From positions 1 through 64,000 of the forward strand of contig JANWKT010000017.1 in NCBI GenBank assembly GCA_025451235.1: DNA of 64,000 bases. The letters run 5' to 3'. Shown here piece after piece: positions 52,739 to 56,707 of this stretch (within the stretch, counting starts at the first letter, position 1; the number at the start of each line of letters is the position of its first letter). The DNA comes from Flavobacteriales bacterium. Lineage in GTDB: Bacteria > Bacteroidota > Bacteroidia > CAIKAF01. The notes beneath the pieces are model-generated. The model did not search any database. It saw only the letters and a list, made by a program, of their open reading frames with translations, and was not told the origin of the DNA. Both the position numbers and the translations under genes were made by a program.

Positions 52739-52856
52739 TTTTTTTGTGGCTTTCTCCGGATTCCCTCCGGGTTATATAAAAATATTCATCCACGTGCAGC
52801 GTTTTAGGGATCTGGCTGTCTATATATAAACCAAAGGAAATGTATTTGAAAAAATA

Positions 52857-53396
52857 ATGCCAATCATAACCCAGGAGTTGGTGCATAGGTGCAAAAGGAA
52901 TGAACGGGCTGCCATGGCGGAGTTGTTTAAAATCCTAGCGCCTAAACTCAAGGGAATATGCTATAGGTATTGTGGGAATGCATTTGATGCGGAAGATCTC
53001 TTGCAGGAAACCTTTATCATTGTTTTTACCAAAATCGGTTCATTTAAAGAGCAAGGGAGTTTTGAAGGCTGGACCCGCAGGATTGCAGTCAACACATGCA
53101 TCAACTGGTTAAAGAAAAACAAGCTTCTTCACCAAATGTATGAGCTTCAACCTAAACACGATGCCGAAGAGGATCAGGAAGAGGACCTGGCTGAGCTCAA
53201 TACACAGGAACTGGTGCAGCATATTGCTGCATTACCAGATGGGTACAGGACTATTCTTAACCTGTTTGCCATAGAGGGATATAGCCATAAAGAAATAGGA
53301 GAACAGTTGGGAATTAATGAAAGCACCTCCCGGTCACAGTATACAAGAGCCAAAAAAGCCCTACAACATTTATTTATGAAAGAAAAAAAACCATGA
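52857..53396 (+). CDS. ECF-type RNA polymerase sigma factor
   Basis: 179 residues. Sigma region 2 (LAPKLKGICYRYCGNAFDAEDLLQETFIIVF) and region 4 helix-turn-helix (YRTILNLFAIEGYSHKEIGEQLGINESTSRSQYTRAK) without region 3, the ECF layout. No fused regulatory domain. Its stop overlaps the start of the next gene (ATGA at 53393-53396), indicating coupled translation with the anti-sigma/barrel protein, which would hold it inactive at the membrane until a signal comes. Confidence 0.95.
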   Translation: MPIITQELVHRCKRNERAAMAELFKILAPKLKGICYRYCGNAFDAEDLLQETFIIVFTKIGSFKEQGSFEGWTRRIAVNTCINWLKKNKLLHQMYELQPKHDAEEDQEEDLAELNTQELVQHIAALPDGYRTILNLFAIEGYSHKEIGEQLGINESTSRSQYTRAKKALQHLFMKEKKP

Positions 53397-54727
53397 GGAA
53401 TTTTGAAAAAAATATAAAAAACAAAGCCTATGCTTTCCAACTGGATCCGATGCCTGATTCATTTGATAAGGTAATGGATGCCCTGGAAAAGAAAAAGAAA
53501 AGAAGATTTATTTTCTGGTTATGGATCCTGATCCCAGGTTTTTTGATAGCTGGTGGTGGTTTGCTGATCAATCAAATGTACTCATCGGCCAATGCACAAG
53601 TTCAGGCCCAATCATTAAAAGCTTCCCACTTGCTCACAGTACTATTTAAAGAAAACAAACAAGGTTTGGTTCATGAAGACAAGTATGCCCTTACAGAAAC
53701 AACCCATACTACCACTCCTGAAAATAAAATGAATAACCGTCCAACCAGTGAAACTCAATCACTGGCCTCTAAAAACAATCAGCCGGTATTCATCAAAGAA
53801 TCCTCCAATCAATCTGCTGAATTCAACAACAGAAATGAAAAATCTTTTGTTCAGATAGAAGAGAAAACCAATATGACCCAGGTTCCTTCAAGGGAAAAAT
53901 GGACCCCTATTATCTTTTCAAATCCATATTTTGTTACGTTCCCTACCCATTCTTCAAACCCTGTTTATAGCAGAACCCAGATCCCCTTTACAAAATCCAC
54001 TCTGCCAGTTATAAAGTCCAATAGCCATCAAACCGGTCGTTGGTCAATAGGAATATATAGCGACCTGGGGGTTTCAAAAAACATTTTTATCAATAACAAA
54101 GATTCCGCCGGTTTTGGTTATACAAATGCCCGGCAACTTACCGACAAATTCTTATTCAGTTATTCGGCAGGGATTCAATTCAGGTATTCGCCGGTTAAAT
54201 GGTTAGCCATAGAAACCGGAATTGGATTTACCCACTATGAATCCAACCAGCTCCTATCAAATGCGGGATTCTCGTGGACCACCAGTGGCAATAACAATGA
54301 TCCGGATACAGCATTAACGTTGTCCTCCGTTGACCCACAGTCAGCTTTCGGCCCATATGAATACCAGAACGTCTATGATTATATTTCCATTCCAATCAAG
54401 GTCTATTACCAAAAGAAATGGAACTGGACAGGAATAGAAGCCGGTGGTGGAATCATTTTCGATCTCCCGGTAAATACGCATTCTTATGTTGCAGATGAAA
54501 ACAGCAATATGTCGTACTTAAGGCATGAAGTAAAAACCTCCCGGTTAAATGTATTTGGGATCCAGGCATCAGCAAATATTCATTTGGTTTTTCATATCAA
54601 GAAATTCGGCTTGTTTGCAGGACCCACTTTCAAATACAGGATGAATTCAATGTTTGATAAAAACTATATCACCCGTCAGCACAATTATTTTATTGGGGGT
54701 GAAATGGGGCTGAGATATCATTTTTAA
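53393..54727 (+). CDS. Dual membrane-spanning anti-sigma factor (Dma-like): short cytoplasmic domain, one TM, linker, outer-membrane beta-barrel
   Basis: 444 residues. Residues 1-39 form a short charged domain (FQLDPMPDSFDKVMDALEKK), much like the N-terminus of Bacteroidetes anti-sigma proteins, ending KKKKRRF. One inner-membrane helix follows at about 40-62 (FWLWILIPGFLIAGGG), then a Gln/Ser/Thr/Asn-rich periplasmic linker to about 200. Residues about 205-444 are an outer-membrane beta-barrel (PF13568-like) with alternating aromatic strands (WSIGIYSDLGVSK, LAIETGIGFTHYE) ending in Phe (GGEMGLRYHF). This layout matches dual membrane-spanning anti-sigma factors described in Bacteroides thetaiotaomicron. 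Partner of the ECF sigma upstream. Confidence 0.85.
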   Translation: MRNFEKNIKNKAYAFQLDPMPDSFDKVMDALEKKKKRRFIFWLWILIPGFLIAGGGLLINQMYSSANAQVQAQSLKASHLLTVLFKENKQGLVHEDKYALTETTHTTTPENKMNNRPTSETQSLASKNNQPVFIKESSNQSAEFNNRNEKSFVQIEEKTNMTQVPSREKWTPIIFSNPYFVTFPTHSSNPVYSRTQIPFTKSTLPVIKSNSHQTGRWSIGIYSDLGVSKNIFINNKDSAGFGYTNARQLTDKFLFSYSAGIQFRYSPVKWLAIETGIGFTHYESNQLLSNAGFSWTTSGNNNDPDTALTLSSVDPQSAFGPYEYQNVYDYISIPIKVYYQKKWNWTGIEAGGGIIFDLPVNTHSYVADENSNMSYLRHEVKTSRLNVFGIQASANIHLVFHIKKFGLFAGPTFKYRMNSMFDKNYITRQHNYFIGGEMGLRYHF

Positions 54728-54769
54728 GCAGCTTTTTCGGTTTTCAACTGTCTTATCAATAAAAATGAT

Positions 54770-55264
54770 ATGATCTCATCCTGTTCAAAAATATGCCTGT
54801 TATTCGTGACTTTTGTCATCGTTGGATGTACTCCGAATAATACCACCATTATTGGTTGCAACAATCCTAATTCCAATGTCCATTATGAAGCCGATGGAGT
54901 CCCTGGAAGTGGGATTGGGGTCTTCGACCATGGTGGTTATCCCACATTGGATTATATGGTTTTAGGAATAACCGGTGGGTGCAACCCCAACAATCCCACT
55001 GATTCAATACTACGCATATTTATTCCACATTCTATTCCGGATACTCCCTATACCTTCCAATTGGTCAACTATAATATAGCCACTCCAAACAATGGATTTG
55101 TAACCGGGTTTAATTATGATGCAGCCAATGGTCAATTCACCATCAATAGCATTACTCCGGACAGCCTGGCCTCCGGAACCTTTCATGGTTCAGCCACCTA
55201 CAATGGTTCTATCATGTACAATATTACCAATGGTGTTTTTACGAATGTTAAGATCAAATATTGA
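54770..55264 (+). CDS. Lipoprotein of unknown function
   Basis: 164 residues with a lipoprotein signal (ICLLFVTFVIVGC, lipobox VIVGC). The mature part is Asn/Thr/Gly-rich with beta-strand patterns (YHEADGVPG, then PDSLASGTFHGSATYNGS). No family recognised. It lies 42 bases after the anti-sigma/barrel gene on the same strand, so it may be in the same operon or regulon. Confidence 0.65.
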   Translation: MISSCSKICLLFVTFVIVGCTPNNTTIIGCNNPNSNVHYEADGVPGSGIGVFDHGGYPTLDYMVLGITGGCNPNNPTDSILRIFIPHSIPDTPYTFQLVNYNIATPNNGFVTGFNYDAANGQFTINSITPDSLASGTFHGSATYNGSIMYNITNGVFTNVKIKY

Positions 55265-55336
55265 TACGATGAGAACATACAATCATTCCTGGAAATGCAG
55301 CTTTTTTATTTTTTCTTGTCTTATAAATAAACACCC

Positions 55337-56113
55337 ATGAAAACAAATTATTTTTTTAGAACCATAAGTATCGTATTCCTCGCGATTGTTTTTTCGTCCT
55401 GCAATCCCTGTGAAGAAATGGATCCTGGTCCGCCTACCTGTGGCTTTGGTTCTGGCGTTCCCATCTCAAGCTGCACGATCACCCCCCAAGCGGAGAATTA
55501 TTTCCGGTATGAAGCAGCACAGTTAGCGGTAGAGCAATTATTCGCCGACAATCACCCTGACACCTCCCAGGTATTTATTCAGCCGGATTATTATAACGCA
55601 TATATAAAAGCACTAGGCCTTATTTACGATGCCACCAGCATTCCCCAAAGGGATTCTGTGATCAATATGAACCTGATATGCCAATGGAATGAAACCTATT
55701 CCATCATGGTGGGTACCGGTCCCAATACATTATGGGCCGAAAATTGGGTAAATAATATCATCCCCACCGGAAACACAACAGTAGATAACGCCATATCGGC
55801 CTATAACCTGAGCATTAGTCCGGGCCCGCAGGCGGGACCAACCCCCTGGTATATTATAGGATCAAATCAGCCTATTAACGGGATTGCCCTCTCATCGATA
55901 TTCATCACCCTGCCCAATGTAGTATACGCGGAGCCTAATACGCATTATAGCTTCTACTCAAAACTTACCGGCTCCTTTAGCGGGGATGTGGCTCATATCA
56001 TATTTTATGAAGGTTGGGGCGATTGTCCCTCTGGCTGCTTTGGGTATCATCAATGGGAGTTCGATGTGGACCTGGCCCAATGTACAGTTACGTTTACAGG
56101 TTATTATCCTTAA
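55337..56113 (+). CDS. Lipoprotein of unknown function
   Basis: 258 residues, lipoprotein signal MKTNYFFRTISIVFLAIVFSSC (lipobox FSSC). The mature chain has eight or more Cys, mostly at the ends (NPCEEMDPGPPTCG and WGDCPSGCFGYHQWEFDVDL), implying disulfides. No family recognised. Same strand and near the sigma/anti-sigma pair, and like it transcribed rightward, so a possible regulon member. Confidence 0.65.
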   Translation: MKTNYFFRTISIVFLAIVFSSCNPCEEMDPGPPTCGFGSGVPISSCTITPQAENYFRYEAAQLAVEQLFADNHPDTSQVFIQPDYYNAYIKALGLIYDATSIPQRDSVINMNLICQWNETYSIMVGTGPNTLWAENWVNNIIPTGNTTVDNAISAYNLSISPGPQAGPTPWYIIGSNQPINGIALSSIFITLPNVVYAEPNTHYSFYSKLTGSFSGDVAHIIFYEGWGDCPSGCFGYHQWEFDVDLAQCTVTFTGYYP

Positions 56114-56171
56114 ATATTAGGTATCGGTGGTAAAGTAAAACTGCAGGGTGTTTCCATTCCATGCAGTTTTC

Positions 56172-56179
56172 TATTTTTG
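56172..56179 (+). promoter_or_regulatory. -7 promoter element TATTTTTG
   Basis: Exact TAnnTTTG match 27 bases before the ATG at 56207, so the following gene is probably transcribed on its own. Confidence 0.45.
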
Positions 56180-56206
56180 TTTATTCTTGATGAATAAACG
56201 AAACCC

Positions 56207-56707
56207 ATGAAAAGAGTTTTTAAATGGACCAAAAGAATCTTTTTCATTCTGGTAGGAGTGGTCTTGCTCACGAAATTCCTGAGCACATTGCTTTTTTCTA
56301 TACTCATTAATACCAACTATAAAGAATATGGATGGAAAGGCGGATGGAAAAGTGATGAGGGTTTATATCATTCAGGATATACGGTTGCCCATCTTCCCTA
56401 TTCATTACCTATCCTCAAGCCTTTTAAAGGGGATGCGGTAGTATTCGAACATTTTTATTCATTTGAACATACATTTTCATCCGAAAAAATGAAATTTACG
56501 GGATGTATCTATCCTATCAAACCCACTCTTCAAGGGGTAACACTCAATGATAGTTTAAGCATAGGATTTCAGGCGAATTTAATAGGCGAAAAAGGACATC
56601 AGATCGAATTGAACGGCTGTGTGAACCTCAACCGGACCCTGATCACCGGATCCTATCGGTCCACCCAGCCCTATGATATGGGAACTTTTTCATTGAGCCG
56701 ACGGTAA
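56207..56707 (+). CDS. Protein with one membrane segment, unknown
   Basis: 166 residues. A basic start (MKRVFKWTKR) leads into a hydrophobic segment about 11-36 (IFFILVGVVLLTKFLSTLLFSILI) that is either an uncleaved signal anchor or a long signal peptide. The soluble remainder (FSFEHTFSSEKMKFTGCIYP, then HQIELNGCVNLNRTLITGSY) looks beta-rich. No family. Its 3' end overlaps the convergent RNA ligase-family gene by 18 bases. Confidence 0.65.
   Translation: MKRVFKWTKRIFFILVGVVLLTKFLSTLLFSILINTNYKEYGWKGGWKSDEGLYHSGYTVAHLPYSLPILKPFKGDAVVFEHFYSFEHTFSSEKMKFTGCIYPIKPTLQGVTLNDSLSIGFQANLIGEKGHQIELNGCVNLNRTLITGSYRSTQPYDMGTFSLSRR

Follow-up and report, generated by a model that had tools for sequence, protein, structure and literature searches.

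How is an ECF sigma factor of the Bacteroidota controlled when the gene beside it encodes a protein of no named family? Class I anti-sigma domains lie near only 6% of the ECF sigma factors of this phylum (PMC7406223). The locus studied here lies in a window of 64,000 nucleotides, the whole stretch of DNA that was analysed, and combines an ECF sigma gene with an overlapping gene for a 444-residue protein, which a first, sequence-only reading had taken for a candidate anti-sigma factor of the Dma kind. Dma proteins control vesicle shedding in gut Bacteroides and are one answer to how those ECF sigma factors of the Bacteroidota that lack a class I anti-sigma factor are controlled; in the literature examined, their function is described in B. 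thetaiotaomicron only. The features of the locus, all on the forward (+) strand, are the following.

52796-52820, +: candidate sigma-dependent promoter motif GCAGC-N17-GTC, 5' of the sigma gene (putative autoregulation)
52857-53396, +: ECF sigma gene, 179 aa, in the clade of Bacteroides Das1/Das2
53393-54727, +: Dma-type candidate anti-sigma gene, 444 aa, ATGA overlap with the sigma gene
53393-53494, +: N-domain, residues 1-34, two short helices, charged; presumed cytoplasmic and putatively sigma-binding
53495-53584, +: single membrane helix, residues 35-64, hydrophobic core about 39-58
53585-54037, +: disordered, periplasmic linker, residues 65-215
54038-54724, +: eight-stranded outer-membrane beta-barrel, residues 216-444, C-terminal Phe
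54728-54752, +: candidate promoter motif GCAGC-N17-GTC, 18 nt before lipoprotein gene 1
54770-55264, +: lipoprotein 1, 164 aa, probable target gene, no family
55297-55320, +: candidate promoter motif GCAGC-N16-GTC, 16 nt before lipoprotein gene 2
55337-56113, +: lipoprotein 2, 258 aa, probable target gene
56163-56199, +: weak motif copy GCAGT-N16-TTC, membership uncertain
56207-56707, +: gene of a 166-aa membrane-anchored protein, 3' of the weak motif copy

Both open reading frames sit where the sequence-only reading had placed them, and the stop codon of the sigma gene (TGA, 53394-53396) overlaps the start codon of the partner gene (ATG, 53393) in ATGA. The 179-aa protein is an ECF sigma factor according to Pfam (PF04542, E=6.5e-19; PF08281, E=9.7e-15). 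Its 444-residue partner, encoded by a single-copy gene in this genome, matches no Pfam or NCBIfam family of its own. The next two genes on the same strand had been called lipoprotein genes, and lipoprotein signal peptides are indeed present at 54770 (...VIVGC/TPNN) and 55337 (...VFSSC/NPCEE). The relatives of lipoprotein 2 elsewhere are secreted proteins with a GDCxxGC motif. They form an unnamed family (window 55337-56113; L238-L247), and since most of the other members carry a T9SS-type sorting domain at their C-terminus, the domain of lipoprotein 2 is probably extracellular. A fold search delivered no convincing match for this protein.

The partner was modelled with AlphaFold2 from a 46-sequence alignment of relatives, and the model bears out the proposed layout of a short charged N-domain, one helix, a disordered linker and a barrel ending in Phe. 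The N-domain consists of helices 4-13 and 23-33 and is followed by a membrane helix of 30 residues (35-64). Hydropathy peaks at residue 40, and the stretch KKKKRR precedes the helix; by the positive-inside rule, this Lys/Arg cluster predicts that the N-domain is cytoplasmic and the remainder outside. Residues from about 65 to 215 are modelled with low confidence (pLDDT mostly 37-55) and represent a disordered linker, as proposed, with a length of about 150 residues instead of the about 140 first given. Eight long strands follow within 217-443 (pLDDT mostly 83-98), the chain ending with F444. Residues 211-444 are OmpA-like and matched OmpA, NspA, OprF and OmpW in Foldseek and VIA-align (VIA-align Z 14-16), so that the barrel fold of the C-terminal half, on which the first assignment depended, is predicted with high confidence. 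The outer-membrane barrel family PF13568 matches the barrels of several relatives of the partner. The alignment shows the N-domain, but not the linker sequence, to be conserved across the family. Comparison of the N-domain profile with solved structures gave no meaningful match and no solved anti-sigma domain.

The window partner is highly diverged and shares 19-27% identity with its relatives in the first alignment; with the protein or its alignment as query, no named relative was found in the genome contigs. A nine-sequence profile of the family delivered matches in 84 of the 395 genomes of the phylum, some of them via barrel-less relatives. The pairing of a sigma gene with the barrel-protein gene is not due to chance, because an ECF sigma gene lies directly upstream of the relative in 47 of the 49 other loci selected with the profile, most often overlapping it. 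Length statistics were taken from the 45 intact members of a larger alignment: 38-83 residues precede the membrane helix, the linker comprises 125-307 residues (median 183, never below 125) and the barrel part about 240. The minimum linker length would be compatible with a stretched span of the periplasm.

Several loci depart from this plan. In L052:4322-5917 and L100:1899-3584 at least two copies of the N-domain motif stand in tandem ahead of the membrane helix, which suggests that these proteins may carry more than one sigma-binding unit. The partner gene of L188:1424-2794, also behind a sigma gene, encodes N-domain, helix and linker followed by a different C-terminal domain that is not a barrel and, judged by eye, looks like a gliding-motility/T9SS-type domain. 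A long frame of genome G034 at this locus was rejected as a sigma/anti-sigma fusion, as it represents two separate genes; the search found no natural fusion of this kind. L048:1747-2712 retains only the barrel, sigma gene and N-domain being missing, and occupies the same chromosomal site as L049:3319-5319, with prs and grpE as neighbours. This joint absence lends indirect support to the putative binding of the sigma factor by the N-domain, as do the conservation of the N-domain next to a variable linker and its presence in barrel-less partners. In one lineage (L089, L093, L107-L111, L113, L116 and L117) the dma gene is regularly followed by a convergent gene for a membrane protein, apparently a PlsC-type acyltransferase as judged by eye.

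The membrane helix might also be a signal peptide or be constitutively cleaved; the barrel would then be released, a short N-terminal piece would regulate the sigma factor, and the protein would never span both membranes. SANA/QVQ after the helix is a possible signal peptidase I site, the barrel-only relative L048 agrees with such a course, and cleavage of an anti-sigma factor by signal peptidase is known for RsiP of Bacillus thuringiensis (PMC8844934). Across 47 family members, however, A-x-A-like sites after the helix number 14, with 14.8 expected from shuffled segments, and a signal-peptidase site was accordingly rejected as a family feature. The 30 residues of the predicted helix also speak against cleavage, as does a linker of always at least 125 residues, a length that a cleaved protein would not need. 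We consider this explanation unlikely.

The genome of Bacteroides sp. GM023, reached via a 16S pattern, served for the comparison with known Dma proteins. The top two matches to the window sigma factor in this genome, well ahead of the other 55, occupy loci of Dma layout. One is identified as the dma2 locus by its DUF4943, DUF4858 and nitronate-monooxygenase-like neighbours, as described for B. thetaiotaomicron dma2, and the second is probably dma1, judged by its NigD-like neighbour gene. The profile of the window family matches the N-terminal parts of both Bacteroides proteins, with E values of 2e-15 (dma2 locus) and 4e-17 (probable dma1 locus), whereas the best of 1000 shuffled controls reached E=1. 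A tree of 87 ECF sequences unites all 46 Dma-linked sigma factors in one clade (support 1.0) with the two from Bacteroides and a further one of the window's genome, and the 38 other ECF sequences fall outside. The window sigma factor groups with both Bacteroides Das-type sigma factors (support 1.0), membership in ECF21 being judged by phylogeny only. The partner displays the hallmarks of Dma proteins: adjacency to the sigma gene, a homologous N-domain, one helix, a long tether and a C-terminal barrel. Profile match and common sigma clade thus support the earlier assignment, and the window locus joins the Dma kind as a new and distant member. By analogy with its Bacteroides kin, the partner would inhibit the sigma factor and be inserted in both membranes.

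The barrel is not always part of the partner. The 43 loci fetched by sigma similarity comprise 21 with a fused barrel partner, 21 with a short barrel-less partner of 82-334 residues and one without a partner; because about half of the partners are barrel-less, this sigma clade can do without an outer-membrane barrel in cis. The N-domain profile matches 20 of the 21 short partners, and in 19 one or more membrane helices are predicted. A short partner followed by a separate secreted protein was observed in L198, L205, L208, L211, L212, L222, L225 and L231. Six of eight separate secreted proteins tested beside barrel-less partners match PF13568 (L205, L208, L211, L222, L225 and L119), two of the six matches lying below the curated cut-off; for those of L198 and L231 Pfam gave no match, and a barrel profile derived from the fused members failed to pick up the separate barrels. 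The window's genome itself holds a second sigma gene of the Dma-linked clade (L044:660-2770, contig C14), followed by genes for a single-helix protein of 186 residues, whose N-domain is related, and for an outer-membrane protein of the PorP/SprF family, possibly a barrel-in-trans version of the window locus.

It is distinctly improbable that the partner is an outer-membrane target of the sigma factor and not its inhibitor, with an N-terminal part that is only an unusual export signal. ECF operons do often include targets, and the relative in L048 has kept its barrel without a sigma gene. Against this, the N-domain shows a conserved motif and homology to the N-domain of the Bacteroides Dma proteins. 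It also recurs where partners in this sigma clade lack a barrel, and some members (L052, L100) carry it as tandem copies. FecR-type regulation, in which a TonB-dependent receptor signals to the anti-sigma factor, is a common arrangement for ECF sigma factors in Bacteroidota but can practically be dismissed here. The domain content contradicts it, since Pfam detects neither a FecR nor a TonB-dependent receptor domain in the partner or the next genes, and so does a barrel that is eight-stranded and fused in one chain with the N-domain.

What the sigma factor may transcribe is indicated by a motif, GCARC-N16/18-GTC, that lies 5' of the sigma gene and of both downstream lipoprotein genes. GCAGCTTTTT-N-TGTCTTAT-like sequences occur in the 64 kb window only at 52796, 54728 and 55297, and weakly before the gene at 56207; as the pattern was read from these very sites, only its absence elsewhere in the window is informative. 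Genome-wide, the strict form has four copies, three of them at the window locus and the fourth 17 nt before the gene of a 79-residue lipoprotein. This gene is the last in a cluster of small lipoprotein-like open reading frames (L191:2022-3016, contig C7 of the same genome). A looser form adds four matches, one of which lies 20 nt before the gene of a secreted 242-residue protein (L192:1792-2517, also contig C7) that is barrel-like by eye and has no Pfam match. The looser matches in L180, L186 and L187 of this genome were set aside as targets, being probably due to chance.

The core GCARC-N17/18-GTC was also sought upstream of related sigma genes across the Bacteroidota. It was found in 14 of 48 regions of a first set and in 16 of 43 regions of a held-out set, with 0-2 matches at every other spacing, the regions not being fully independent as some of the genomes are related. 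The held-out matches in L202 and L210 were discounted, because they read in frame as an rdgB-like coding motif. Most related loci carry no recognisable copy; the core is present 5' of the sigma gene in the Bacteroides dma2 locus. Nine intervals between dma and the next gene contain it, and in eight of the nine the next gene encodes a lipoprotein. In a second genome of the window's genus (L051) the motif is carried by the sigma gene as well as by the lipoprotein gene downstream, and in another genome of the same family (L238) a relative of lipoprotein 2 is encoded on a different contig from the sigma gene, with the motif just upstream. Lipoproteins with a strict lipobox make up 12 of the 26 same-strand next genes after dma, compared to 21 of 194 other open reading frames (Fisher p=4e-5). 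Because they share the upstream motif with the sigma gene, both lipoprotein genes of the window are likely direct targets, and these observations suggest that lipoproteins may be the main output of the sigma factor.

Architecture, homology, sigma clade, common motif and gene order rest on computation. Taken together, the window locus is probably a Dma-type sigma/anti-sigma module, with the following route to lipoprotein output. The N-domain of the partner would most likely hold the ECF sigma factor at the inner membrane, and the disordered tether would cross the periplasm to a barrel seated in the outer membrane. The barrel most likely senses the outer membrane or its own assembly. A change at the barrel or through the tether, such as a ligand, failed assembly, altered membrane spacing or cleavage, may then free the sigma factor, which would transcribe its own operon and at least the two downstream lipoprotein genes from GCARC-N16/18-GTC promoters and so alter the lipoprotein content of the envelope. 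The linker may also act as a gauge by which envelope stress is passed inward, as the sequence-only reading had proposed. In barrel-less loci, a separate neighbouring outer-membrane sensor barrel would have to signal to the short anti-sigma factor. Whether all these loci represent one module across the Bacteroidota, with a common GCARC-N16/18-GTC code, lipoprotein output and a barrel that is fused or, in part, a separate neighbour, is an even call. The wide distribution (84 of 395 genomes), the candidate motif and the recurring lipoprotein neighbours offer a direct experimental handle.

While the locus itself adds a new member to a known kind, greater interest attaches to the candidate promoter motif, with its likely lipoprotein output, and to the barrel-less architecture. 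Dma2/Das2 of B. thetaiotaomicron (BT_1558/BT_1559), where loss of dma2 strongly induces das2 and its neighbours (PMC13088901), resembles the window locus in its sigma gene followed by N-domain, one helix, long disordered tether and C-terminal barrel, in a lipoprotein gene directly downstream, in sigma factors of one clade and in GCAGC-N17-GTC 5' of the sigma gene in the recovered Bacteroides locus. The two proteins share only 14-15% identity over their alignment, however, barrel and linker are longer in the window partner, and the downstream lipoproteins belong to unrelated families; for the window locus, a tie to vesicles or glycan genes would be putative. Dma1/Das1 of B. thetaiotaomicron (PNAS 2024, cited in PMC13088901) agrees in layout and sigma clade. 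The probable Bacteroides locus adjoins a NigD-like lipoprotein gene, as the window locus adjoins a lipoprotein gene, but that gene is divergent there and downstream in the window, and the motif was not found 5' of the sigma gene in the probable dma1 locus. The barrel-less forms (L044, L198, L205, L208, L211, L222, L225 and L231) share with the window locus a related sigma factor, a related N-domain and usually one helix; they differ in having a short partner without a barrel and a separate secreted protein encoded next door.
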